Shown piece by piece: positions 8,465 to 33,941 of a stretch of DNA of 64,000 bases. This DNA is from Robiginitalea biformata HTCC2501 (GTDB lineage: Bacteria > Bacteroidota > Bacteroidia > Flavobacteriales > Flavobacteriaceae): positions 372,001-436,000 of the forward strand of contig NC_013222.1 in assembly GCF_000024125.1 (NCBI RefSeq), in the 5' to 3' direction. The notes beneath the pieces were generated by a model, which made no database searches, was not told the DNA's origin, and worked only from the letters and a program-made list of their open reading frames with translations. The position numbers and the translations under genes were made by a program. Position 1 is the stretch's first letter; every line of letters begins with the position of its first letter.

Positions 8465-10249
8465 ATGAAACAATTCCTGTGCTCCCTGGCAGTCCTGTGC
8501 CTTTCGGTCGTTTCGGCCCAGGAAGATTTCCTGGCCAAGCAGTATTTCAACGACGGGGATTTTGACAAGGCGGTTGTGTATTACGAGAAGCTTGCGGAAA
8601 ACAACCCGAGACGGACGGACTACACGGAAGGCCTCGTGTTGTGCTACCACCAGCTGGAGGCCTACGACAAAGCGATCTCCTTTCTGAGCCGGCGCCTGGA
8701 GGAGGGCAATGCCTACCCGACACTCCTGATCGATATGGGGTATACCTACCTGCTTATGGATCGGCCGGAGGAGGCCGAAAAATGGTATCGCCAGGCACTG
8801 GAGACCATCGAATCCAACCCGAATTTCGGATATGGGATCGGGTTTAAATTTCAGCGGTATACCCTCCTGGATTATGCCCTGCAGGCCTATTCCCGCGCGA
8901 TGGAGCTCAACCCGGAACTCGATTTTAATTTTCAAATAGCCCGTATTTACGGGGAACAGGGACGTATCGGGGAAATGTTCGACGCCTATATGGACCTGTT
9001 GCAACAACGGGAGTCCGCCAAGGCGAATGTACTCCGGGTAATCGAATCCTTTATCGGTCCGGATCCGGAAGCCGAAAACAACCAGTTGCTCCGACGCGTC
9101 CTGCTTACCCGGGCGCAGAAAGACCCGGACCCGCTTTGGAACGAATTGCTCAGCTGGCTGTACCTGGAACAGGGGCAATACGCCAACGCGTTTAACCAGG
9201 AAAAGGCCATATACCGGCGCGTACCGGAGGTCCGGCTCGACCGCATGGTGAACCTGGGTCGCAGCGCGGAGGAGGCCGGGGCCGTTGAGGCTGCTGTCGC
9301 TGCATTTGAATTTGTGGTTGCCGAAAGCAACGACCCGGTAAGCCGGCTCAACGCACGCCTCCACCTGATCGATATCGGCCTGGCCGACAACCGGGAAAAA
9401 GACCTGCGGGAGGCCGAACAAGCCTACGAGGAGCTGATGGACGAATACGGCTATGCCGCTTCCACCCTGCAATTGCAGGTGGCCTATGCCAAATTCCTGG
9501 CCTTCCGCCTCTCCAAACCCGACCGGGCAATCCGCATCCTGAAAAACAGCCTGGACCTGCCGCTTCCGGAATATGCGGAAGGCTACGTAAAGCTCAGCCT
9601 GGGAGACATCCTCGTCTTTGACCAGCGGTTTAACGAGGCGCTCATCTTGTTCTCGCAAATCCAGAAATTGCTGAAAAACGACGTGATGGGGCAACAGGCC
9701 CGCTTTAAGGTTGCACAGACCAGTTTTTACAAGGGGGATTTTGACTGGGCGCTTACCCAGCTGAAGGTCCTCCGCAATTCCACGTCCCAGCTCATCGCCA
9801 ACGACGCCATGCAGCTCAGCCTGATCATTTCGGACAATTCGCTGGAGGACTCCACCCAGACCGCCCTGCGGAAGTACGCCCGGGCCGACCTGCTGGCGTA
9901 CCAGCAAAAAAACGCGGAAGCGCTCGCGGCCCTGGACGAAATACTGACCGGCCACAAGGGGGAGAAAATCGAAGACGAGGCCTTACTGATGCACGGCAGG
10001 TTGCTCGAAGCGGCCGGCGATTATTCAGGTGCCCTACTGAGTTATCGCAAAATCGTTGAGTTCTTTGGGCAGGACATCCTGGCGGACGACGCCCATTTTG
10101 CCATGGGGGAGCTGTACCGAACCCGCCTGGAAGACCCGGCCAAGGCCATGGAACACTACAGGGAAATCATCTATCGCTTCCAGGACAGTTACCACTTCCC
10201 GGAAGCCCGCAAACAATTCCGGAGGCTGCGGGGCGACCCCGTCAATTAA
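8465..10249 (+). CDS. Exported tetratricopeptide-repeat protein
   Basis: A 594-residue protein with a signal peptide (residues 1-19, VVSAQEDF after the likely cleavage site), so it should act in the periplasm or at the outer membrane. Degenerate TPR helices begin at once (AKQYFNDGDFDKAVVYYEKL, about 22-41) and recur along the chain, for example AISFLSRRLEEGNAYPTLL, AEKWYRQALETIE and ALLSYRKIVEFFGQD near the C-terminus. TPR proteins are scaffolds for protein complexes; no enzymatic motif is seen. The protein is conserved-looking and sits between serS and the DUF4286-rsmA-mgtE run. A role in envelope assembly or gliding machinery is possible but not shown. Confidence 0.88.
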   Translation: MKQFLCSLAVLCLSVVSAQEDFLAKQYFNDGDFDKAVVYYEKLAENNPRRTDYTEGLVLCYHQLEAYDKAISFLSRRLEEGNAYPTLLIDMGYTYLLMDRPEEAEKWYRQALETIESNPNFGYGIGFKFQRYTLLDYALQAYSRAMELNPELDFNFQIARIYGEQGRIGEMFDAYMDLLQQRESAKANVLRVIESFIGPDPEAENNQLLRRVLLTRAQKDPDPLWNELLSWLYLEQGQYANAFNQEKAIYRRVPEVRLDRMVNLGRSAEEAGAVEAAVAAFEFVVAESNDPVSRLNARLHLIDIGLADNREKDLREAEQAYEELMDEYGYAASTLQLQVAYAKFLAFRLSKPDRAIRILKNSLDLPLPEYAEGYVKLSLGDILVFDQRFNEALILFSQIQKLLKNDVMGQQARFKVAQTSFYKGDFDWALTQLKVLRNSTSQLIANDAMQLSLIISDNSLEDSTQTALRKYARADLLAYQQKNAEALAALDEILTGHKGEKIEDEALLMHGRLLEAAGDYSGALLSYRKIVEFFGQDILADDAHFAMGELYRTRLEDPAKAMEHYREIIYRFQDSYHFPEARKQFRRLRGDPVN

Positions 10250-22163: not shown

Positions 22164-23171
22164 ATGCAGAGAAAAAACAAGACCCTCGGGGAGTTCATCA
22201 TTGAGAACCAGCAGGAATTCCAGTATTCCACGGGCGAATTGTCCAAACTGATCAACGCGATCCGCCTTGCAGCCAAGGTGGTTAACCACGAGGTGAATAA
22301 GGCCGGGCTGGTGGACATCCTGGGAGCTGCCGGCGAAACGAATATCCAGGGTGAGAGCCAGCAGAAACTCGATGTGCTGGCCAATGAAAAATTCAAACAG
22401 ACATTGCAGAACCGGGAGATCGTCTGCGGCATTGCCTCGGAGGAAGAAGACGATTTCATCACCATCAATTCCCAGGACGAACAGCACCAAAACAAATACG
22501 TCGTACTGATAGACCCCCTGGACGGCTCGTCAAATATCGACGTGAATGTGTCGGTGGGAACCATATTTTCGATCTACCGGCGGGTCACCCCCATCGGGTC
22601 GCCTGTGTCCCTGGAGGACTTTTTGCAACCCGGGGTGAACCAGGTAGCGGCCGGGTATATTATCTACGGCACCTCCACGATGCTCGTCTATACCACCGGG
22701 CACGGGGTAAACGGCTTTACCCTCAACCCGGCCATCGGCACGTTTTACCTCTCCCACCCCAACATGCAGTTTCCGGAAACGGGCCGTATCTACTCGGTCA
22801 ACGAAGGGAATTACACGCACTTTCCGCAGGGGGTCAAAGACTATATCAAATACTGCCAGAAGGAAGAGGACGACCGGCCCTACACGTCCCGGTACATCGG
22901 TTCCCTGGTATCGGATTTCCACCGGAATATGATCAAGGGGGGCATCTACATCTACCCAAAGAGCAGTACGGCCTTCAACGGCAAACTCCGGTTGCTCTAC
23001 GAATGCAACCCAATGGCTTACCTGGCCGAACAGGCCGGGGGCAGGGCATCGGACGGGTACCGCCGGATCCTGGAGATTACGCCTACAGAACTGCACCAGC
23101 GCGTGCCGTTTTTCTGCGGGAGCCGTAAAATGGTGGAGAAAGCCGAGTCCTTTATGGCGCAATACGCCTGA
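22164..23171 (+). CDS. fbp: Fructose-1,6-bisphosphatase, class 1
   Basis: A 335-residue gluconeogenic enzyme that hydrolyses fructose 1,6-bisphosphate to fructose 6-phosphate. The metal-binding region is visible as ASEEEDDF (about residues 92-99) and [19 protein letters not shown] (about 114-132), the class 1 FBPase signature. The substrate site includes [12 protein letters not shown] and [19 protein letters not shown] near the C-terminus. Length and order match the family. It is divergent from the GNAT-lysC operon across 114 bases; a near-match box GATATTTG stands at about 22130-22137. Confidence 0.97.
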
Positions 23172-23224: not shown

Positions 23225-23653
23225 TTACTTCCGGCGCTCCATGAGCAGCAGGTAGTCTTCAAACGGAATCTGCCCGCTGAAAATTTCCGTAGAACTTTTA
23301 AGCACCTTGTCGGCCATTTCTGAGCTGAAGCCGATCCCGATAGCGTACTTGCGTACCAGATCCTCTTCTTCCGCGTCGATTCCGTGGTCCGAGAAGATGA
23401 TCCGGAAGAAATCGTAGAGCCGCTCGTAGCGCTTCTTCATCTCGAAGGGGGCCTCAATCGGGTATTTGTTTTCCTTCTTCATCACCTCCTTATATTCGGC
23501 ATCGGTGATATTGAGTTTCTGGGCAAAACGGTCCAGGATTTCCTTTTCCGCCGGGTTGACCGCTCCGTCAACGGCCGCCAGGGAGGCGATGGCTGCAAAG
23601 TGCGCCAGGTTGCGGCGTTTCTCGGAGTGGTTGTATAAATCTAAAATGGGCAT
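23225..23653 (-). CDS. TerB-like protein
   Basis: A 142-residue all-helical cytosolic protein with LAHFAAIASLAAVDGAVNPAEKEIL (about residues 14-38, shortened to VDGAVNPAEKEIL) and IDAEEEDLVRKYAIGIGFS. The 'A.ADG.....E...' pattern repeated twice is that of TerB/TerB-C proteins, whose acidic residues bind metal ions. The longer frame to 23695 would begin upstream of the promoter box at 23677-23684, so the ATG at 23653 is preferred. Function is unknown; a tellurite role should not be assumed without other ter genes, and none are seen. Confidence 0.75.
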   Translation of the reverse strand: MPILDLYNHSEKRRNLAHFAAIASLAAVDGAVNPAEKEILDRFAQKLNITDAEYKEVMKKENKYPIEAPFEMKKRYERLYDFFRIIFSDHGIDAEEEDLVRKYAIGIGFSSEMADKVLKSSTEIFSGQIPFEDYLLLMERRK

Positions 23654-23676
23654 GGTCTGCAATGCGTTTATCTCTG

Positions 23677-23684
23677 CAAATATA
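23677..23684 (-). promoter_or_regulatory. Promoter box TATATTTG for the TerB-like gene
   Basis: Exact TAnnTTTG match on the minus strand, 23 bases before the ATG at 23653. It decides the start codon, since the alternative ATG at 23695 would not be in the transcript. Confidence 0.6.
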
Positions 23685-23881
23685 TTTCTTTTCAAAGGAT
23701 TTGCCCGCTTCCCCGAAGGGTTTTAACCCTTCATGGCGCAAAGATTTACAGGTCCCTTAGAAGGGGGTTTTACCATGGGTTCCCACGGGGGAAACACAAC
23801 GGGTAATGCCGGCCAAATCGAAACGGACGCCAAACGTTCGGGGTCCTTCCTGTTCCCGGAATTCCGTACCTTCACACAGCT

Positions 23882-24895
23882 ATGGAAAAACCGCTTCTGG
23901 AATTCACCGACAGGGGCATTTACTGCCCGCCTGCCGACGTCTACCTGGACCCCTGGAAACCCGTGGACCGCGCCCTGATTTCCCACGGCCATGCCGACCA
24001 CAGCCGGCCCGGTCACGGCCGGTATATCACCCATCATAGAAACGTACCGATTATCCGCCACCGGCTGGGCGATATCCGCGTCAGTGGCCGGGAATGGGGG
24101 GAATCCTTTACCGTCAACGGCGTGCGCTTTAGTTTTCACCCGGCCGGACATATTATCGGATCGTCCCAGATTCGGGCGGAATACCAGGGGGAAGTCTGGG
24201 TGTTTTCGGGCGACTATAAAACCGAAGACGACGGCCTGGCCACGCCGTATGAACCTGTGCGTTGCCATAGTTTTATCACGGAATGCACATTTGGGTTGCC
24301 GGCGTTTAAATGGCGGCCGCAAGCGGAAGTACTGGGGGATATCAACGCCTGGTGGGCGCGGAACCGGGAAGGGGGGAAAACCTCCGTTTTGCTCGCCTAT
24401 TCCCTGGGAAAAGCCCAACGACTCCTGGCTGGCCTGGACCCGGACATCGGCCGGATCTATACCCACGGGGCCATTGAAAATATGACGGAAGTACTGCGCC
24501 CGCTGGCCGGATTCCCGGAAACCACCCGGGTAACCGGGGAAACCACGAGGGAGGAACTCCGCGGCAACCTCGTTCTGGCCCCGCCCAGCGCCCATGGCAG
24601 TACCTGGATGCGGCGGATGGTGCCCTATGAGGTAGCCGCTGCCAGCGGCTGGATGGCTTTTCGGGGGGCAAGGCGCCGGCGTGCGGTAGACCAGGGTTTT
24701 GTCCTGAGCGACCACTGCGACTGGCAGGGGCTGCTTGATAGCATCCGGGCCACCGGGGCGGAGCGCGTCATCTGCACGCACGGATACGCCCATATTTTTT
24801 CGCGCTTCCTGGCCGAAAACGGGTACGACGCACGTACAGAGGAAACCCAATACGAGGGGGAAACCCCCGAAAACGACACGCAGGTAGTGACATGA
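23882..24895 (+). CDS. Ligase-associated DNA exonuclease (MBL / beta-CASP fold)
   Basis: A 337-residue metallo-beta-lactamase-fold nuclease. The metal motif is SHGHADHSRPG with H35, H37, D39 and H40; further motifs are HPAGHIIGSSQI and VFSGDYKTEDDG. The C-terminus has the beta-CASP-type VICTHGYAHIF. Domain and context match the family annotated as ligase-associated exonuclease (TIGR04122, by recollection), related to SNM1/Artemis nucleases. The ATG is at 23882. Its stop overlaps the ligase start (ATGA, 24892-24895). It should trim DNA ends before ligation; 5' or 3' polarity is not visible. Confidence 0.93.
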   Translation: MEKPLLEFTDRGIYCPPADVYLDPWKPVDRALISHGHADHSRPGHGRYITHHRNVPIIRHRLGDIRVSGREWGESFTVNGVRFSFHPAGHIIGSSQIRAEYQGEVWVFSGDYKTEDDGLATPYEPVRCHSFITECTFGLPAFKWRPQAEVLGDINAWWARNREGGKTSVLLAYSLGKAQRLLAGLDPDIGRIYTHGAIENMTEVLRPLAGFPETTRVTGETTREELRGNLVLAPPSAHGSTWMRRMVPYEVAAASGWMAFRGARRRRAVDQGFVLSDHCDWQGLLDSIRATGAERVICTHGYAHIFSRFLAENGYDARTEETQYEGETPENDTQVVT

Positions 24896-26499
24896 GGGCA
24901 TTTGCGGAACTCATACGGACCCTGGATGCCACCAACAAGACGAACGTCAAGGTGGATGCCCTGAGCAGCTACTTCGACAGCGCCCCGGGGCCGGATAAGG
25001 TCTGGACCATCGCCATCCTTTCGCACCGCCGCCCACCCCGTCCGGTCAATACCCGCCTGCTTCGGGAATGGGCGTCGGAACTGGCGGGCATCCCGCTCTG
25101 GCTATTCGAGGAGAGTTACCATATCGTGGGCGATCTGGCTGAGACTATCGCCCTGGTGATCCCGCAGTCGGGGAACCCGGATTCGGGAGCCCGTTCCCTG
25201 TCCGATTACCTGGAGGACATCGTGGCGCTCAGGGGCCGTGAAGAATCCGGAAAAAAAGCCTACCTCCAGGAAAACTGGCAAAAACTGGGGTTCTATGAGC
25301 GATTTGTCCTCACCAAATTCATGACGGGCGGCTTCCGGATCGGGATCAGCCAGAAACTCATGACCCGGGCCCTGTCGCAGGCCACGGGCATCGGGGAAGA
25401 CCTGCTCGCCTTCCGGCTGATGGGCAATTGGGACCCGGCCAATACGAGTTTCCAAGAGTTGGTGTTGCAGGAGCAGCAGGCCGAAAATCAGTCCCGACCC
25501 TACCCCTTCTACCTGGCCTATCCGGTGGATGAGACGCCCGAAGACCTGGGGGATCCCTCGGCATGGCTGATGGAGCACAAATGGGATGGGATCCGGGCGC
25601 AACTCATTGTGCGCGGGGGGACCCATTTCCTCTGGAGTCGGGGCGAAGAGTTGATCACCGGGAGCTACCCGGAACTCGCGGACCTGGCGGAGGCCCTGCC
25701 CGACGGCACGGTCATCGACGGGGAGATACTGCCCTACCCCAAGGGACAGGTAGGAAGCTTCAACGACCTGCAAAAGCGACTGGGCCGTAAAAAAGTCACC
25801 AACGCCCTGCTTCAGAAGATTCCGGTAATCCTCAGGGCCTACGACCTGCTGGAATGGAAAGGCAAGGACATTCGGGACCTGCCCTATACGGAGCGCCGGG
25901 CCCTGCTCGACCCGCTGATCGAACCCCTGCAGGCAGACCCCAACTTGCCGGCAGACCTCTCGGCAACGCTGGAAATCAAGGACTGGGATGCGGCCCGGAA
26001 AGAACGCGGGCGGGCACGGGAACTCCGGAGCGAGGGGCTCATGCTCAAACGACGGGCATCGGCTTACGGCGTGGGAAGGAAAAAAGGGGATTGGTGGAAG
26101 TGGAAGGTAGACCCCTTCACGGTGGATGCCGTGCTCACCTATGCCATGCGCGGCCATGGACGGCGCAGCAACCTTTTTACGGATTACACCTTTGCGCTCT
26201 GGGCCGATACGGAAAACGGCCGCGAGCTGGTTACGTTTGCCAAGGCGTATTCCGGACTGACGGATGCCGAATTCCGGCAGGTGGATGCCTGGATCAAGCG
26301 GAATACCCTGGAGCGTTTTGGTCCGGTCCGTTCCGTGAAGCCCGAACACGTTTTTGAAATTGCCTTTGAGGGGATTGCCCGGTCCGGGCGGCATAAAAGC
26401 GGCTTTGCCACCCGTTTTCCGCGGATCGTCCGCTGGCGGAAAGACAAACCCATTTCCGAGGCAAACACGCTTGCGGAACTCGAAAACATGATCCCCTGA
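24892..26499 (+). CDS. ATP-dependent DNA ligase of the repair cassette
   Basis: A 535-residue ATP-dependent ligase. An N-terminal helical DNA-binding domain (about 1-200) precedes the adenylation domain; the lysine that forms the adenylate is K230 in EHKWDGIRAQLI. Other nucleotidyltransferase motifs are LPDGTVIDGEILPY and EGLMLKRRASAYG with DWWKWKVDP (motif V). The C-terminal OB-fold domain ends KHKSGFATRFPRIVRWRKDK or similar, here GRHKSGFATRFPRIVRWR. It matches the TIGR04120 (PP_1105-type) ligase group. The housekeeping NAD ligase would be elsewhere. Four-base overlaps and short gaps bind it to the exonuclease and helicase genes. Confidence 0.94.
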   Translation: MRAFAELIRTLDATNKTNVKVDALSSYFDSAPGPDKVWTIAILSHRRPPRPVNTRLLREWASELAGIPLWLFEESYHIVGDLAETIALVIPQSGNPDSGARSLSDYLEDIVALRGREESGKKAYLQENWQKLGFYERFVLTKFMTGGFRIGISQKLMTRALSQATGIGEDLLAFRLMGNWDPANTSFQELVLQEQQAENQSRPYPFYLAYPVDETPEDLGDPSAWLMEHKWDGIRAQLIVRGGTHFLWSRGEELITGSYPELADLAEALPDGTVIDGEILPYPKGQVGSFNDLQKRLGRKKVTNALLQKIPVILRAYDLLEWKGKDIRDLPYTERRALLDPLIEPLQADPNLPADLSATLEIKDWDAARKERGRARELRSEGLMLKRRASAYGVGRKKGDWWKWKVDPFTVDAVLTYAMRGHGRRSNLFTDYTFALWADTENGRELVTFAKAYSGLTDAEFRQVDAWIKRNTLERFGPVRSVKPEHVFEIAFEGIARSGRHKSGFATRFPRIVRWRKDKPISEANTLAELENMIP

Positions 26500-26502
26500 A
26501 CC

Positions 26503-29007
26503 ATGGCAGGCCCCAAGCACCCTACCGGGCAACCCCCGGATACCGACGCCCTGATGGCCATCGCCTCCGATTGGTTTAAACGGCAAGGCTGGGACCCATT
26601 CCCCTTCCAGCACAAGACCTGGGCCGCCTTTATGGAGGGCCGCCACGGCTTGTTGAACGCCCCCACCGGAAGCGGGAAAACCTACGCCCTCTGGTTCCCG
26701 ATCCTCCTGGAGTATATGCGGCAGCACCCAAATTTCCGGGATGGGCACAAAAAAGGTCTCAAGGCCATCTGGATCACCCCGCTGCGCGCCCTGTCCCGGG
26801 AAATCCACCAATCGGCCGAACGAATCACCCGGGACCTCGACATCCCATTTGAGGTGGGGATACGGACCGGCGACACCTCCAGTGCCGAACGCGCCCGGCA
26901 ACGCAAGATCCTCCCCGACCTGCTGATCACCACCCCGGAAAGCCTGCAGTTGCTCCTGGCCACCAAGGGCTATAAAAAGCTGTTCGCGGACTGCTATGCC
27001 ATTGTCGTGGACGAGTGGCATGAACTGCTCGGCAGCAAACGAGGGGTACAGATGGAGCTGGCCCTCTCCCGCCTGAAAACCATTTGTCCTGCCCTGCGGA
27101 TCTGGGGGATTTCCGCCACCATCGGCAACCTGGAACAGGCCCGGCAGGTGTTGCTCGGTCCGGAATCCGGCGCCCTGGAAAATTCCGTGCTGATCCGCGC
27201 GCAAATCGACAAGAAAATTACGGTCCGGAGTATTATCCCGGATACGATGGAGACCTTTCCCTGGCGGGGCCACCTAGGGCTCCACCTCCTGGAACACGTC
27301 ATCCCGATTATCCGGAACAGCAAGACCACGCTGCTCTTTACCAATACCCGGGGCCAATGCGAGATCTGGTTCCGGGCCTTGCTGGAAAAACACCCGGAAC
27401 TCGCCGGGGACATTGCCATGCACCACGGGAGCATCGACAAGGCCACCCGGAACTGGGTGGAACAGGCCATCCGGAACGAAAGCCTCCGCGCCGTGGTCTG
27501 CACCTCCAGCCTGGACCTGGGCGTGGATTTTGCACCCGTGGAGACCGTGGTGCAGATTGGCGGGCCCAAGGGGGTGGCCCGGTTTCTGCAGCGGGCCGGC
27601 CGGTCCGGGCATCGGCCGGGGAGGGAAAGCGTCATCTATTTCCTGCCCACCCACGCCATGGAACTCATCGAGGCCTCCGCCCTGCAACAGGCCGTTCGCA
27701 AGCAGGCCGTGGAAGACCGCATCCCGTACCTGGCCAGTTACGACGTCCTGGTCCAGTACCTGACTACCCTGGCCGTGTCGGATGGCTTCCTGCCGGAGGA
27801 AATCTACCGGGAGGTGACCGGAACGTTCTGCTACCAGGCCATGAGCCGGGAAGACTGGGAATGGCTGCTGAACTTCCTGGTGATGGGGAGCCAGAGCCTG
27901 GCCAGTTACGACGAATACAAAAAGGTGGAGGTACTGCCCGACGGGTTGTTCAAGGTTACCAACCGGGGCGTCGCCATGCGGCACCGGTTTCAGATCGGCA
28001 CGATTGTGGGGGACGCGCACATGACTGTAAAATACCAGAAAGGCGGGTACATCGGGACGATCGAGGAGTGGTTTATCTCCAAACTCAACCCCGGCGACGT
28101 CTTTACTTTTGCAGGGCGCAACCTGGAATTTATCCGGATCCGGGACATGGTGGCCCAGGTGCGGAATTCCAGCAGGAAAACCTCTAAGGTGCCCAGCTGG
28201 ATGGGCGGGCGATTGACCCTGTCGAGCGAGATGTCCGAACTGCTCCGGGAAGAACTCTATTCGCACCGCCGGCCGGCCGGGGAGCAATCCCGGGAAATCC
28301 GATCCCTGGACGCACTCTTTAAACGGCAGCAACTCGAGAGTATCGTCCCGGGGCCGGACCAGTTCCTGATTGAAACCTTCCAAAGCCGGGAGGGGTACCA
28401 CCACCTGTTCTACCCCTTTGAAGGACGGTTTGTACACGAGGCCATGGCGAGCTTGCTCAGTTACCGCATCAGCCTGCTGTCCCCGATCACCTTTTCCCTG
28501 GCCTACAACGACTACGGCTTTGAGCTCCTGTCCGACCGGGAACTGAATATCGGGGTGATCCTGGACAACGACTTGTTCAGCCCGGAATACCTGCTGGACG
28601 ACTTGCAGAAAAGCCTGAACGCCACTGAAATGGCCCGGCGGAAATTTCGCGACATCGCTGTGATCAGTGGCCTGGTGTTTACGGGTTACCCGAAAAAGGG
28701 GATCAAGATGAAGCACCTGCAGAGCAATTCCCAATTGCTCTTTGAGGTGTTCCGCGACTACGAACCGGACCACCTGCTCTTCCGGCAGGCTTTCCGGGAG
28801 ACCTTTGAGCACCAATTGGAAGAAGGACGCCTGCGAAAAGCCCTGGAACGGATCTCCCGGCAGGAAATCCTCTGGAAGGCCTGCGAAAAATACACGCCGT
28901 TTTCCTTCCCGATTATCACGGACCGGCTGCGGGAAAAGCTCTCCAGTGAAAAACTCGCCGACCGCATCCGCCGGATGACACGGATCCTGACCCGCGGAGG
29001 TCGCTGA
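26503..29007 (+). CDS. Ligase-associated DEXH helicase (Lhr-Core type)
   Basis: An 834-residue superfamily 2 helicase. Walker A is NAPTGSGKT with K59; motif II is DEWH at 170-173; motif III is WGISATIG; the second RecA domain has LLFTNTRGQCEIWF, VVCTSSLDLGVDF and FLQRAGRSGHRPG (motif VI). A winged-helix and Lhr-type C-terminal region follows. It matches the ligase-associated DEXH group (TIGR04121), homologous to the Lhr core. Pseudomonas homologues are ATP-dependent 3'-to-5' DNA or RNA:DNA unwinding enzymes. It begins 3 bases after the ligase stop and is followed after 20 bases by pdeM. Confidence 0.94.
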   Translation: MAGPKHPTGQPPDTDALMAIASDWFKRQGWDPFPFQHKTWAAFMEGRHGLLNAPTGSGKTYALWFPILLEYMRQHPNFRDGHKKGLKAIWITPLRALSREIHQSAERITRDLDIPFEVGIRTGDTSSAERARQRKILPDLLITTPESLQLLLATKGYKKLFADCYAIVVDEWHELLGSKRGVQMELALSRLKTICPALRIWGISATIGNLEQARQVLLGPESGALENSVLIRAQIDKKITVRSIIPDTMETFPWRGHLGLHLLEHVIPIIRNSKTTLLFTNTRGQCEIWFRALLEKHPELAGDIAMHHGSIDKATRNWVEQAIRNESLRAVVCTSSLDLGVDFAPVETVVQIGGPKGVARFLQRAGRSGHRPGRESVIYFLPTHAMELIEASALQQAVRKQAVEDRIPYLASYDVLVQYLTTLAVSDGFLPEEIYREVTGTFCYQAMSREDWEWLLNFLVMGSQSLASYDEYKKVEVLPDGLFKVTNRGVAMRHRFQIGTIVGDAHMTVKYQKGGYIGTIEEWFISKLNPGDVFTFAGRNLEFIRIRDMVAQVRNSSRKTSKVPSWMGGRLTLSSEMSELLREELYSHRRPAGEQSREIRSLDALFKRQQLESIVPGPDQFLIETFQSREGYHHLFYPFEGRFVHEAMASLLSYRISLLSPITFSLAYNDYGFELLSDRELNIGVILDNDLFSPEYLLDDLQKSLNATEMARRKFRDIAVISGLVFTGYPKKGIKMKHLQSNSQLLFEVFRDYEPDHLLFRQAFRETFEHQLEEGRLRKALERISRQEILWKACEKYTPFSFPIITDRLREKLSSEKLADRIRRMTRILTRGGR

Positions 29008-29014
29008 GATTCGG

Positions 29015-29022
29015 TATCTTTG
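29015..29022 (+). promoter_or_regulatory. Promoter box TATCTTTG five bases before pdeM
   Basis: Exact TAnnTTTG match between the helicase stop (29007) and the pdeM ATG (29028). With the box centred near -7 the transcript would start at or next to the ATG, which implies a leaderless pdeM message in addition to operon read-through. Confidence 0.5.
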
Positions 29023-29027
29023 ACCAG

Positions 29028-29702
29028 ATGACGCACTCCCTGGAACTCGCCGGCGAATCTGTGGTATTCCACCCCTGGGGCGGCCTGTTCTGGCCAGCCG
29101 CCTCCACGCTGTTGCTCAGCGACCTGCACCTGGGGAAGGTGATGCATTTCCGCAAACACGGGGCTGCCGTACCCCGCGCTGCGATCCGTCGAAATTTCGA
29201 TAGGCTTGAGGCCATCCGCAGGCATTTTGAGCCCCGGACGCTCTGTTTTCTGGGCGACCTCTTCCATTCGCATATCAACCGCGAATGGCAGCTGTTTTCC
29301 GATTGGGCCGGGGCGTGCACTTCCCGGATGCAACTGGTGGTCGGCAACCACGACGTTATTTCCCCCCTGCGCTACGAGGCCCTGGGCATTGAATTGTACG
29401 ACTCCCTGGAAGCCGGGCCGTTTACCCTGACCCACCACCCGGAGGCAGCCGCGGGCCGGTTTAATATTGCAGGACACATCCATCCGGCGGTCCGGTTGGG
29501 TGGCGCGGGGCGGCAGACGCTTCGCCTGCCCTGCTTCCACCTGAAAACCAACCAACTGATCCTCCCGGCATTCGGGGCGTTTACCGGCACCCATGCCCTG
29601 GACCCGGAACCGGGCGACCGGTTTTTTGCCCTGACCGGGGATGCAGTGGTTCCCCTGGAGGCCGCTATTTCCGGTACCCCAACTAAAAGCAGCAAGTCAT
29701 GA
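29028..29702 (+). CDS. pdeM: Ligase-associated endonuclease PdeM
   Basis: A 224-residue binuclear metallophosphoesterase. Metal-ligand motifs are visible in order: LLLSDLHLGK (about 29-38), CFLGDLFHSH (about 72-81), VVGNHD (about 104-109), LTHHPEAAAGRFNIAGHIHP (about 136-155). This is the calcineurin-like set D-x-H, GD, GNHD, GHxH. It matches the ligase-associated family (TIGR04123); the Pseudomonas homologue is a manganese-dependent single-strand DNA endonuclease. It is fourth in the repair set. Its stop overlaps the next gene's ATG (ATGA, 29699-29702). Confidence 0.93.
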   Translation: MTHSLELAGESVVFHPWGGLFWPAASTLLLSDLHLGKVMHFRKHGAAVPRAAIRRNFDRLEAIRRHFEPRTLCFLGDLFHSHINREWQLFSDWAGACTSRMQLVVGNHDVISPLRYEALGIELYDSLEAGPFTLTHHPEAAAGRFNIAGHIHPAVRLGGAGRQTLRLPCFHLKTNQLILPAFGAFTGTHALDPEPGDRFFALTGDAVVPLEAAISGTPTKSSKS

Positions 29703-30514
29703 ACAAGACCTGGTCGTACCTGAACCTTTTATCCGCGATGCTGGTCCTGGCAGTCAACGGGATATCCCAATCCGGTATGTGGCCCTATCCGGCTGTCGGG
29801 GAAATCAGCCGGAAATACGATACGCTCTTCACCCCGGCAGGATATGCCTTTGCCATCTGGGGTCTTATTTTTATCGGGTTGCTGGCCTTTGCGATCTACG
29901 GTATCTACCGGAGTTCCCGCTACGATCGGGACAACGAATTTATCGCCCGTTCCGCCCCCTGGTTTATCGGGGCAAACCTCCTGAATGCCGCCTGGGTGGT
30001 GGTCTTTACCAGGGAGTGGATCGGCATGTCCCTGCTGGTGATCGTTGGGTTGCTGGCCTGCCTGGCCGCAATCATCCGCAGGCTAAATATGGAGCGGTGG
30101 GACGCCCCGATTGGCACCATCGCCTTTGTCTGGTGGCCCATCTGTTTCTATTCCGGTTGGGTTTCGGTTGCGGTTATCGCCAATGCCGCCCTCTACCTGG
30201 AATACCTCGGGTGGGACGGCTGGGGGATCGGTCCTGTTCAATGGGCCCTGGCCCTGGTCCTGGTGGCATTTGCCCTCAACGTATTTATGGTATTGAGCCG
30301 AAACATGCGGGAATTTGCCCTGGTCGGTATCTGGGCCCTGGCTGCCATCGCCTTCCGCCACCAGGAGTCTTCCGGGCCGCTTTTTTACGTGCCCCTGGCC
30401 GGCGCCGCCCTGCTCCTGCTGCTCGTCGGGTGGCACGGCTACCGAAACCGCAGGACCAATCCGATGCGGAAGTTTCAGGAGCGCTTTACCCACGGCGATC
30501 CCGAAAAATCGTGA
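29699..30514 (+). CDS. TspO/MBR-like tryptophan-rich membrane protein
   Basis: A 271-residue membrane protein with about seven hydrophobic helices. The N-terminal region has the TspO-like pattern TLFTPAGYAFAIWGLIFIG (about 42-60) and later WFIGANLLNAAWVVVF and WWPICFYSGWVSVAV, rich in tryptophan and tyrosine. It is longer than bacterial TspO (about 160 residues) and belongs to the wider TspO-related group in Bacteroidota and eukaryotes. TspO binds porphyrins and is linked to oxidative or photo-stress. It is coupled by ATGA overlap to pdeM, which suggests a stress link with the repair set; this is an inference. Confidence 0.78.
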   Translation: MNKTWSYLNLLSAMLVLAVNGISQSGMWPYPAVGEISRKYDTLFTPAGYAFAIWGLIFIGLLAFAIYGIYRSSRYDRDNEFIARSAPWFIGANLLNAAWVVVFTREWIGMSLLVIVGLLACLAAIIRRLNMERWDAPIGTIAFVWWPICFYSGWVSVAVIANAALYLEYLGWDGWGIGPVQWALALVLVAFALNVFMVLSRNMREFALVGIWALAAIAFRHQESSGPLFYVPLAGAALLLLLVGWHGYRNRRTNPMRKFQERFTHGDPEKS

Positions 30515-30552
30515 AACCCGCACCAAAAATTGCCCACTTGCTGGCATCCCCC

Positions 30553-30560
30553 TATTTTTG
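30553..30560 (+). promoter_or_regulatory. Promoter box TATTTTTG before mfd
   Basis: Exact TAnnTTTG match ending nine bases before the first possible TTG start of mfd at 30570, so the leader is only a few bases long. Confidence 0.55.
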
Positions 30561-30569
30561 CACAAAATT

Positions 30570-33500
30570 TTGCCTTTGAATCTGGAAACGATCCGGGAAA
30601 AATTCCAACAGGCCCCTTTTTTCAGGGATCTGCAGGACGCTATTGCCCAACCCGCCGCAACGGTGTCCCTGGACGGGCTCACCGGATCTTCCCTCTCGTT
30701 TGTCGTTGCGGAAACCTTTAAAGCACAGGTCTGCCCCATGCTCGTCCTGCTGGGCGATAAGGAAGAAGCCGCCTATGTGCTGAACGACCTGGAGGAACTG
30801 CTGGGCCGGGACAATGTGCTTTTTTACCCGGGCAGCTACCGCAGACCCTACGAGATTGAGGAAACCGATAACGCCAACGTACTGTTGCGGGCGGAAGTGC
30901 TCAGCCGTATCAGTTCCCGCAAGAAGCCGGCCCTGATTGTCAGTTACCCGGATGCGCTGTTCGAGAAGGTGGTTACCCGGAAAGAACTCAGCCGCAATAC
31001 GCTGAAAGTCCGGGTGGGCGACAACCTCTCCCTCGACTTTTTGAACGAAACGCTCTTTGAGTACCATTTCAAGCGGGTCGATTTTGTAACCGAGCCGGGC
31101 GAATTTTCGGTGCGGGGAGGCATCGTGGACGTATTCTCCTTCTCCCATGACGAACCCTACCGCCTGGAATTCTTCGGGGACGAAATCGACAGCATCCGGA
31201 GCTTTGACGTGGAAACCCAGTTATCGACGGACAAACACAAGAAGATTACCCTGGTACCCAATGTTGCCGACAAGATACTGCACGAGGCCCGGGAGAGTTT
31301 CCTCAAATACATATCGGACCGGACCCTGCTGTTTATCAAGCAGCCCGAACTTTGTTTTGCCCAGCTGGACAAGCTTTTTAAGAAAGCCGGGGAAGCCTTT
31401 ACAAAACTGGAGGGCGAACTGGCCCATGCCGAACCGGGAGCGCTCTTCCTGGACGGGCGGTCGTTTCGGGAGGAGCTCGGCGGGTTCCGCACGGTGGCCC
31501 TGGACGGGAAATCCGGCGAAACCGGAACGGCCGGTACAGCGCTTCGCGTCCGGGTCATGCCCCAACCCGCCTTTAATAAGCAATTTGAACTGCTTCGGGA
31601 CACCCTGGCGGAAAACGCAGAAAAGGGAATGCAGAACTTCCTGTTCTGCTCCTCCCAACAACAGGCCAACCGCTTCCGGGATATCTTTGAAGAGATCGGC
31701 CGGGATGTCCCCTATTCCACCATTGTCCGGCCGCTTTACCGGGGTTTCCAGTCCGAGGAACTCGGCCTCAGCTGCTACACGGACCACCAGTTGTTTGAGC
31801 GCTACCACCGCTTCCACTTGCGCAACGGGTACGCCAAGAAGCAGGCAATTACCCTGAAGGAACTCAACAAACTCGAAATCGGCGATTACGTCACCCACAT
31901 CGACCACGGGATCGGCAAATTCGGAGGGCTGCAGAAAATCGATGTGGAAGGCCGGCAGCAGGAGGCCATCAAACTGATCTACGGCGACCGGGACATCCTC
32001 TATGTCAGCATCCACTCCCTGCATAAAATCGCCAAATACAACGGCAAGGACGGGACCGTGCCGAAGATCTACAAACTCGGGTCGGCTGCCTGGAAGAAAC
32101 TCAAGGCGAAAACCAAGTCGCGCGTCAAGAAAATCGCCTTCGACCTCATCCAGGTCTATGCGAAGCGACGGATGAAAAAAGGATTCAGCCACGCCCCCGA
32201 CAGCTATCTCCAGCACGAACTGGAGGCCTCTTTTGTCTATGAGGACACCCCGGACCAGAGTACCGCCACCGAAGCCGTGAAGGCAGATATGGAAAGTGAA
32301 CGCCCCATGGACCGGCTGATTTGCGGGGATGTGGGATTCGGAAAAACCGAGGTGGCCATCCGGGCCGCCTTCAAGGCGGTGGATAACGGGAAGCAGGTGG
32401 CCGTCCTGGTGCCGACGACCATCCTGGCCTTCCAGCACTTCCGCACCTTCGGGGAACGGCTCGCCGAGATGCCGGTAACCGTCGATTACCTCAACCGGTT
32501 CCGAAGTGCAAAGGAGCGGCGCACGCTGTTGGAGAACCTGAAATCCGGGAAACTCGATATCGTGATTGGCACGCATCAACTGGTGGGCAAACAGGTGGAA
32601 TTCAAGGACCTGGGCTTATTGATTGTGGACGAGGAACAAAAATTCGGCGTCTCGGTCAAGGACAAACTCAAGAGCCTGAAGGAACATATCGACGTGCTGA
32701 CCCTTACGGCAACCCCCATCCCGCGCACGCTTCAGTTCAGCCTGATGGCCGCCCGCGACCTTTCCGTCATCAACACGCCGCCCCCAAACCGCTACCCGAT
32801 CGAAAGCCGGGTGGTCCGATTTGGCGAGGAGGTAATCCGCGATGCCATCCGATATGAGATCCAGCGCGGCGGGCAGGTCTTTTTTGTCCATAACCGGATC
32901 GAGAATATTGCAGAAGTGGCCGGGCTCATCCAGCGCCTGGTCCCGGATGCCCGCGTCGGCATCGGCCACGGCCAGATGGAGGGGAAAAAGCTGGAGAAGC
33001 TCATGCTCGATTTTATGAACGGCGAATTCGACGTACTGGTTTCCACGACGATCATCGAGAGCGGCCTGGACGTAACCAATGCGAATACGATACTGATCAA
33101 TAACGCGAATAATTTCGGCCTGAGCGACCTGCACCAGATGCGCGGCCGGGTGGGGCGGAGCAACAAAAAGGCCTTTTGCTATTTTATCACGCCCCCCTAC
33201 CACGTGATGACAGCGGAGGCGCGCAAGCGAATGGAAGCCCTGGAGCAATATACCGAGCTGGGCAGCGGCTTCAACATCGCGATGAAAGACCTTGAAATCC
33301 GCGGGGCGGGCGATTTGCTGGGAGGCGAACAGAGCGGGTTTATCAATGAAATCGGCTTTGAGACCTACCAGAAAATCCTGGCCGAAGCCATTGACGAACT
33401 CAAGGATAACGAATTCAAGGACCTCTACCGGGAAACGGAAGGCCCCCGGCAGCAATACGTCCGGGACTGCCAGATCGACACGGATTTTGAGCTCCTCTTC

Positions 33501-33941
33501 CCGGACGATTACATCAATAGCGTTTCGGAACGGCTCAGCCTGTATACCGAATTGAACGATACGGACAATGAGGAGGATCTGGCCGCATTCCGGAGGAAAC
33601 TGGAAGACCGTTTTGGCCCGCTGCCGGAACCCGCGTCCGACCTGCTGGAATCCGTCCGGCTGAAGTGGATGGCGACCGCCCTGGGGCTGGAAAAAATCGT
33701 GATGAAAAAAGGGAAACTGATTGGTTACTTCATCGCCGACCAACAATCGGAATTCTACCAAAGCGCCGTCTTCAAACGGATGCTGCAATACGTGCAATCC
33801 CACCCCGGGAGTGGCCGCCTGAAAGAAAAGCAAACCCGCAACGGGCTGCGGCTGCTGCTGGTTTTTGAACGGGTGACCTCCATCGGGAAAGCCCTTGGGG
33901 CCCTGGAACCCATTGCCGGTTCGCGCGTACCCCAGGCCTGA
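30570..33941 (+). CDS. mfd: Transcription-repair coupling factor
   Basis: About 1123 residues. Mfd displaces RNA polymerase stalled at DNA lesions and recruits UvrA. The N-terminal UvrB-like part has VLFYPGSYRRPYE and VRGGIVDVFSF. The RNA-polymerase-interacting domain has IGDYVTHIDHGIGKFGG. The helicase part has the Walker A GDVGFGKTEVAIRAAF with the lysine near residue 592, DEEQKFGV (motif II) and LTATPIPRTLQ; the TRG motif region follows (MRGRVGRSNKKAFCYF). No ATG lies near the correct N-terminus; TTG at 30570 (MPLNLETIREKF) or 30576 is the start. The reading frame upstream of 30561 overlaps the TspO-like gene and should be ignored. Confidence 0.95.
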   Translation: MPLNLETIREKFQQAPFFRDLQDAIAQPAATVSLDGLTGSSLSFVVAETFKAQVCPMLVLLGDKEEAAYVLNDLEELLGRDNVLFYPGSYRRPYEIEETDNANVLLRAEVLSRISSRKKPALIVSYPDALFEKVVTRKELSRNTLKVRVGDNLSLDFLNETLFEYHFKRVDFVTEPGEFSVRGGIVDVFSFSHDEPYRLEFFGDEIDSIRSFDVETQLSTDKHKKITLVPNVADKILHEARESFLKYISDRTLLFIKQPELCFAQLDKLFKKAGEAFTKLEGELAHAEPGALFLDGRSFREELGGFRTVALDGKSGETGTAGTALRVRVMPQPAFNKQFELLRDTLAENAEKGMQNFLFCSSQQQANRFRDIFEEIGRDVPYSTIVRPLYRGFQSEELGLSCYTDHQLFERYHRFHLRNGYAKKQAITLKELNKLEIGDYVTHIDHGIGKFGGLQKIDVEGRQQEAIKLIYGDRDILYVSIHSLHKIAKYNGKDGTVPKIYKLGSAAWKKLKAKTKSRVKKIAFDLIQVYAKRRMKKGFSHAPDSYLQHELEASFVYEDTPDQSTATEAVKADMESERPMDRLICGDVGFGKTEVAIRAAFKAVDNGKQVAVLVPTTILAFQHFRTFGERLAEMPVTVDYLNRFRSAKERRTLLENLKSGKLDIVIGTHQLVGKQVEFKDLGLLIVDEEQKFGVSVKDKLKSLKEHIDVLTLTATPIPRTLQFSLMAARDLSVINTPPPNRYPIESRVVRFGEEVIRDAIRYEIQRGGQVFFVHNRIENIAEVAGLIQRLVPDARVGIGHGQMEGKKLEKLMLDFMNGEFDVLVSTTIIESGLDVTNANTILINNANNFGLSDLHQMRGRVGRSNKKAFCYFITPPYHVMTAEARKRMEALEQYTELGSGFNIAMKDLEIRGAGDLLGGEQSGFINEIGFETYQKILAEAIDELKDNEFKDLYRETEGPRQQYVRDCQIDTDFELLFPDDYINSVSERLSLYTELNDTDNEEDLAAFRRKLEDRFGPLPEPASDLLESVRLKWMATALGLEKIVMKKGKLIGYFIADQQSEFYQSAVFKRMLQYVQSHPGSGRLKEKQTRNGLRLLLVFERVTSIGKALGALEPIAGSRVPQA

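Follow-up and report, generated by a model that had tools for sequence, protein, structure and literature searches.

Does the ligase-associated DNA repair set of bacteria behave as one four-gene unit, or as two smaller units that can be kept or lost separately? This question is raised by a locus of the flavobacterium Robiginitalea biformata HTCC2501, whose genome is a single contig of 3.53 Mb, and was addressed starting from a window of 64,000 nucleotides (positions 372001-436000 of NC_013222.1). All four known ligase-associated repair genes (exo, lig, lhr and pdeM) are found at window positions 23882-29702, each scoring above its curated NCBIfam cut-off. They stand on the plus strand in the order exo-lig-lhr-pdeM, with 4-base overlaps or gaps of 3-20 bases. 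The genes encode a predicted nuclease with metallo-beta-lactamase (MBL) fold and beta-CASP part (exo, 23882..24895, TIGR04122, 458 bits), an ATP-dependent DNA ligase (lig, 24892..26499, TIGR04120, 636 bits), an Lhr-Core DEXH helicase (lhr, 26503..29007, TIGR04121, 1143 bits) and a metallophosphoesterase of the MPE family (pdeM, 29028..29702, TIGR04123, 235 bits). The initial annotation had called this a complete four-gene set and had given its order, overlaps and gaps, together with K230 in EHKWDGIR and DEWH at residues 170-173; all of this was confirmed. The locus is thus an additional member of an already published set, the role of which in DNA repair is predicted, and public annotation already names these genes. 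The set is widespread and usually described as one four-gene operon. The initial annotation had treated the set as a single unit; its gene content resolves into two separable pairs, exo-lig and lhr-pdeM, whose members were retained or lost jointly in a family sample and, with few exceptions, in a phylum sample.

The family sample took one genome per genus from the family to which the window belongs, 149 in total. Here lhr was detected in 50 genomes (49 above the cut-off) and pdeM in the identical 50, while exo was detected in 43 and lig in the identical 43, all inside the 50 with lhr and pdeM. Seven genomes contain lhr and pdeM only, 99 contain none of the four genes, and other combinations were observed in none. 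The full sets are mostly compact, 38 of 43 being ordered exo-lig-lhr-pdeM with every gap below 3 kb and 30 of 43 with every gap below 500 bp. In 3 of the 50 genomes, lhr and pdeM are found on separate contigs or opposite strands, and in two more they are separated by more than 3 kb; they still always co-occur.

The phylum sample consisted of 118 genomes across Bacteroidota. lhr was found in 30 of them and pdeM in 31, with 30 in common, and exo and lig were found together in 36. Of the 118 genomes, 26 contain both pairs, 4 contain lhr-pdeM but not the exo-lig pair, and 10 contain exo-lig but lack a complete lhr-pdeM pair. Partners were neighbors on the same strand, no more than 1.5 kb apart, in 31/36 genomes for exo-lig and 19/30 for lhr-pdeM, compared with 12/26 for lig-lhr, so that the genes are linked more often inside the pairs than between them. 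In 11/30 genomes, lhr and pdeM co-occur though more than 1.5 kb apart or unlinked. The initial annotation had named unlinked genes in most relatives as evidence that would speak against a set; such scattering was not observed in the family, whereas lig and lhr are closely linked in only the above 12/26 phylum genomes. Outside the phylum, a plasmid search returned 43 records with a long Lhr match, four of which were inspected at the lhr site. On plasmids of Comamonas endophytica and Ideonella dechloratans, the complete set was found as exo-lig-lhr-pdeM with short overlaps or gaps, and the Paraburkholderia and Sinorhizobium plasmid records carry lhr-pdeM alone at this site (the chromosomes were not searched).

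The separation of the pairs was followed at single sites in 80 named loci, the best 80 of 272 matches to the window Lhr and hence restricted to close relatives. Of these loci, 64 contain the complete set, 2 contain exo-lig-lhr without pdeM (L122, where the sequence ends soon after lhr, and L160, where it does not), and 14 contain lhr-pdeM without exo-lig. Two of the 14 (L125 and L143) start too near lhr and were set aside. The 12 kept show the order fbp - terB (reverse) - lhr - pdeM, followed by mfd in 11, the remaining one (L119) ending before that point. Whole-genome searches of the 12 genomes, all of unstated completeness and several of them metagenome-derived, recovered lig in 0/12 and exo above the cut-off in 0/12, and recovered both genes in 2/2 controls. 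In 4/12 genomes, exo gave partial matches of 29-36 bits in frames of 458-483 amino acids; these are probably other beta-CASP proteins, because both controls have a second such match. On the lhr tree, the absence of exo-lig requires 5 changes, at least 4 of which are forced by strongly supported branches, and lhr-pdeM without exo-lig spans an entire clade of seven Flagellimonas/Muricauda/Allomuricauda rows. Loss of exo-lig appears to be the simpler direction, since the position of exo-lig between terB and lhr is common to Maribacter, Robiginitalea and Aequorivita. Close relatives with two or four genes in an otherwise unchanged neighborhood (Croceitalea L105 versus L109, L112 and L122; Robiginitalea L091 versus L089) represent natural half-deletions. 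Such pairs allow a paired test that separates damage needing only Lhr-PdeM from damage also needing Exo-Lig.

What could each pair do? The window Lhr contains PF00270, PF00271, PF19306 and PF08494, corresponding to the RecA1, RecA2, winged-helix and Domain 4 regions (WH_Lhr and DEAD_assoc domains), and therefore falls into the bLhr (Lhr-Core) class as defined in PMC8301817. A Pfam profile search gave no match to the C-terminal HTH_42 extension in the window Lhr. The protein matches Mycobacterium smegmatis Lhr (5v9x) with an E-value of 1e-54, and is the only Lhr above the cut-off genome-wide, with four weaker matches (34-61 bits) in other frames. Relatives have been described as ATP-driven 3' to 5' translocases on single-stranded DNA (PMC7437997, PMC8301817), the mycobacterial Lhr-Core being most active on 3'-tailed RNA:DNA hybrids (PMC7437997). 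Among lhr copies of other genomes, that of G235 (L180) shifts frame near window residue 238-240, and that of G204 (L181) was reported with one internal TAG. PdeM matches the solved Pseudomonas putida MPE (6nvo) over residues 18-210 with an E-value of 2.8e-27, and its stretches SDLHLGK, GDLF, GNHD, THHPE and GHIHP, which we take to be metal ligands, align to that structure, placing the protein in the MPE/PdeM family. A PdeM relative has been described as a DNA endonuclease (PMC8301817). The ligase possesses N-terminal, catalytic and C-terminal ligase domains (PF04675, PF01068 and PF04679) and K230 as the KxDG lysine, and is assigned on these grounds to the LigB class. In three relatives (L178, L179 and L110), the ligase is lengthened at a single position, after window residue 344-346, by low-complexity inserts that keep the frame and span about 30-65 residues.

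On balance, we favor, with moderate confidence, the reading that a known repair set is kept or lost as two pairs, with an opening and nicking step followed by a trimming and sealing step. Damaged DNA would be opened by Lhr-Core, and the strand thereby exposed would probably be nicked by PdeM. The end made by PdeM would then be trimmed by the predicted exonuclease and probably sealed by the ATP-dependent ligase. We infer the order of these steps, the meeting of all four proteins on one lesion and the action of Exo on a PdeM-made end. In the window's family, Lhr-PdeM is the pair that occurs without the other, and in such genomes its product would pass to general enzymes for trimming and ligation. 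The gene contents are consistent with two units, Lhr-PdeM being able to function by itself, and Exo-Lig either by itself or together with Lhr-PdeM.

Several observations weigh against this reading. In the phylum sample, one genome (G104, counted among the 10 above) contains pdeM without lhr, three (G006, G086 and G101) contain exo without lig, and one (G004) has a weak partial ligase match only; in addition, G099 has exo alone, with a match below the cut-off. No match above the curated cut-off was obtained in 17/40 exo-bearing and 20/37 lig-bearing phylum genomes. Moreover, exo and lig are less than 500 bp apart in 43/43 family genomes, and because of this linkage their joint loss may reflect single deletions rather than function. 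That point lends weight to a competing explanation, by which the four proteins form one indivisible pathway, two-gene genomes are decaying remnants, and exo and lig are co-lost by one deletion. The 99 family genomes with none of the four genes are consistent with such a pathway, as is G235, which belongs to the seven genomes retaining just lhr-pdeM and in which lhr is frame-broken and below the cut-off, as decay predicts. In the other six of these seven, however, lhr is intact and above the cut-off, and neither the seven-row clade with its lhr-pdeM pairs, the five changes on the tree, nor the 10 phylum genomes with the converse content would be expected of remnants. We thus consider an indivisible pathway rather unlikely.

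The substrate of Exo bears on a further alternative. The metal and motif residues of the window protein (D23, H35, H37, D39, H40, H90, D111, E134, H278 and H300) are invariant in 31/31 aligned relatives, as are Y173 and K177. A wider motif count gave 239/240 and 238/240 exo relatives, these being the best 120 for each of two queries rather than a random sample; the three exceptions, inspected by eye, keep the Tyr, Lys and His. His300 is the motif C histidine, an RNA-type third metal ligand that characterizes CPSF-73-type enzymes, and is present in 31/31 aligned relatives, none of which shows the SNM1-type motif C valine. SNM1 DNases carry valine at this position (PMC4678830, PMC7458816), and Exo does not fit the SNM1 family at motif C. 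The RNA nucleases CPSF-73, Ysh1 and TTHA0252, which share the motif C His, are the best sequence and fold matches to Exo, but the beta-CASP part of Exo is shorter, and Tyr-Lys is aligned to the Phe-Arg of Ysh1. Conversely, the DNA nucleases SNM1A, Apollo and Artemis resemble Exo in their compact MBL/beta-CASP fold and similar length (TM-score of 0.68 for SNM1A) and in the Tyr-Lys spacing, but have valine in place of His300. Tyr173 may correspond to Apollo Y182, with the Lys four residues on, as judged from spacing and the Ysh1 alignment. Exo is a candidate for the RNA-type class by one residue and the fold rank, and may cleave RNA. The two substrate markers point in opposite directions, His300 being of RNA type and the Tyr-Lys pair of DNA type. 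A diverged exo-lig pair, in which exo is 25-29% identical to the window exo, was found in Balneolaceae and kin (L081:564-1550; P0241-P0360, partly from Balneolaceae) below the NCBIfam cut-offs (217 versus 325 bits for exo). These diverged genes have been deposited under such names as "hypothetical protein" or "mRNA 3-end processing factor".

Might the set then handle RNA in DNA, such as RNA:DNA hybrids or ribonucleotide ends, with Lhr opening hybrids, Exo removing RNA and the ligase sealing? The invariant His300 points in this direction, the motif C His having been read as a sign of RNA substrates (PMC3095777), and so do the VIA-align matches listed for Exo, which are RNA-type enzymes, the hybrid preference of mycobacterial Lhr-Core (PMC7437997) and the presence of mfd, encoding transcription-repair coupling factor, beside the set in 44/80 loci. 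Yet a Val-to-His exchange in SNM1A left activity and substrate preference unchanged (PMC4678830, PMC7458816), Tyr173 is of the DNA-repair type, the PdeM relative is described as a DNA endonuclease (PMC8301817), and a promoter-like box of its own precedes mfd. We therefore regard this explanation as improbable. A variant that combines it with the two pairs is likewise improbable: an old Lhr-PdeM machine would open and nick, and an independent, optional Exo-Lig machine, whose Exo would join an RNA-type two-metal center to a DNA-type 5'-phosphate pocket, would strip RNA from DNA ends before sealing, the two together mending RNA-containing breaks, for example at stalled transcription. Finally, a role in anti-phage defense instead of repair is very improbable: the patchy gene content and cross-matches of the helicase to defense helicase models (SngC 244, BrxHI 216 and DpdJ 206 bits) would suit it, but PADLOC gave 0 matches for exo, lig, pdeM and the downstream TspO-like protein, so that only the helicase is hit and no multi-gene system is recovered, and the site is a chromosomal housekeeping neighborhood common to several genera.

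In the window, that neighborhood begins with fbp, encoding class 1 fructose-bisphosphatase (22164..23171, plus strand; PF00316, 266 bits; NF006778, 565 bits), a housekeeping gene outside the set that is kept beside it in many Flavobacteriaceae loci. A TerB-like gene (23225..23695, minus strand; PF05099, 33 bits, cut-off 24.4) is divergent from the set and forms its left border, as it forms the left edge of the gap where exo-lig is missing. Downstream of the set are a gene for a TspO-like membrane protein (29699..30514, plus strand) and mfd (30576..33941, plus strand; TIGR00580, 980 bits on frame 30315-33938, with a TTG start by reading). The initial annotation had pointed to both, and both are real neighbors, but neither is a core part. 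The TspO-like protein has the TSPO five-helix fold over residues 1-173, followed by a C-terminal helical extension; no TspO profile matched it above the cut-off in Pfam or NCBIfam, and TSPO was not among the 50 Foldseek matches listed for it. As its gene is present in only 28/80 related loci, it was rejected as a core part and is better viewed as an accessory neighbor. The mfd adjacency is real and common to several genera. The gene is preceded by a promoter-like TTG-N20-TATTTTTG sequence (30530..30560, plus strand), whose TAnnTTTG box we liken to the Bacteroidota promoter consensus. The box precedes mfd in 43/45 loci, against a mean of 4.4 and a maximum of 9 in shuffled sequences, which are a loose control when the sequences are related. 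Because mfd has this conserved box of its own, its adjacency is weak evidence for joint action, and mfd is weakly supported as a core part. A tblastn search (> 60 bits) of 29 other Bacteroidota neighborhoods detected mfd near lhr in 0/29 and a TspO-like piece in 1/29. The latter (L038:13500-15900) is a gene remnant just upstream of exo, split by an open frame that we presume to be transposase-like.

A promoter common to the set found little support: TAnnTTTG precedes its first gene in only 6/80 loci, and a variant, TTTGTAnnTT, in 20/79 (shuffle mean 1.3, maximum 5), including 7/12 exo-lig-free loci. The leader may thus have been retained through the loss of exo-lig, a mere lead given the relatedness of the sequences. 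Sigma-70 consensus sites occur at chance (4 versus 3.7 expected), terminator-like sites number 21 versus 13.2 expected, and Rfam gave 0 matches above gathering scores over the window.

Some loci contain additional genes within the set. Small DUF559 nuclease-like genes (PF04480; 113 bits in L174) are located at the lig-lhr junction in five loci (L150, L172, L174, L175 and L176) and just after lhr in two (L109 and L122). These 7 loci, 4 of which had been chosen for having a gap, are the only ones with DUF559 matches among 93, all at these junctions, and the lhr tree requires 7 changes to explain them. Two of the seven copies are interrupted (L150 and L109), copies with inspected flanks are near short palindromes, and palindromes, when searched for, fell within the operon span in 6/7 cases versus 1.9 expected. 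A GIY-YIG open frame (PF01541; 58 bits in L098) was observed between lig and lhr in four Maribacter loci (L098, L102, L107 and L117, at about 9622-9940), and a fifth match elsewhere (L109:19086-19343). In Flagellimonas pacifica, a reverse transcriptase gene (RVT_1, 56 bits) lies between lhr and pdeM on the minus strand (L101:12799-14370). The DUF559 and GIY-YIG nucleases are more likely mobile inserts than fifth parts of the set, and the boundary of the two pairs is likely a site where mobile elements insert preferentially.

How does the locus compare with known systems? Its closest named relative is that of Robiginitalea sp. SC105 of the Flavobacteriaceae (87% identity for exo and 91% for lhr). 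The four-gene set was described for P. putida (Ejaz and Shuman, 2018; Ejaz, Goldgur and Shuman, 2019; as cited in PMC8301817, PMC10140301 and PMC7437997). PMC10140301 describes the four-gene operon, calls its role unknown and mentions fused exo-ligase proteins. The statement of the initial annotation that each part has been studied in Pseudomonas was not borne out by that paper, which credits the helicase and the MPE nuclease, and presents the MBL protein as "with putative nuclease function". Loss of the longer E. coli Lhr, which belongs to a different class, leads to sensitivity to peroxide but not to mitomycin C (PMC10953399), and says little about the window set. No title or abstract opening stating the two-pair view was found in a literature search that did not extend to the P. 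putida primary papers, and priority is not claimed. The nearest precedent is the pairing of Lhr with a phosphoesterase: the bacterial Lhr-Core gene has an MPE gene nearby in 276/319 genomes, and archaeal lhr genes have one for a related phosphoesterase (PMC8301817). This pairing corresponds to the Lhr-PdeM pair of the window, but exo and lig are not considered as a further unit in the relevant section of that paper. The Comamonas and Ideonella sets share the order and tight spacing of the window set, but are located on plasmids and encode Lhr proteins to which the window Lhr is 43-44% identical. The P. putida Lhr-Core/MPE/ligase/MBL cluster comprises the same four families, with its solved MPE matched by the window pdeM, whereas the window set resides in Flavobacteriaceae and is followed by a TspO-like gene and mfd.

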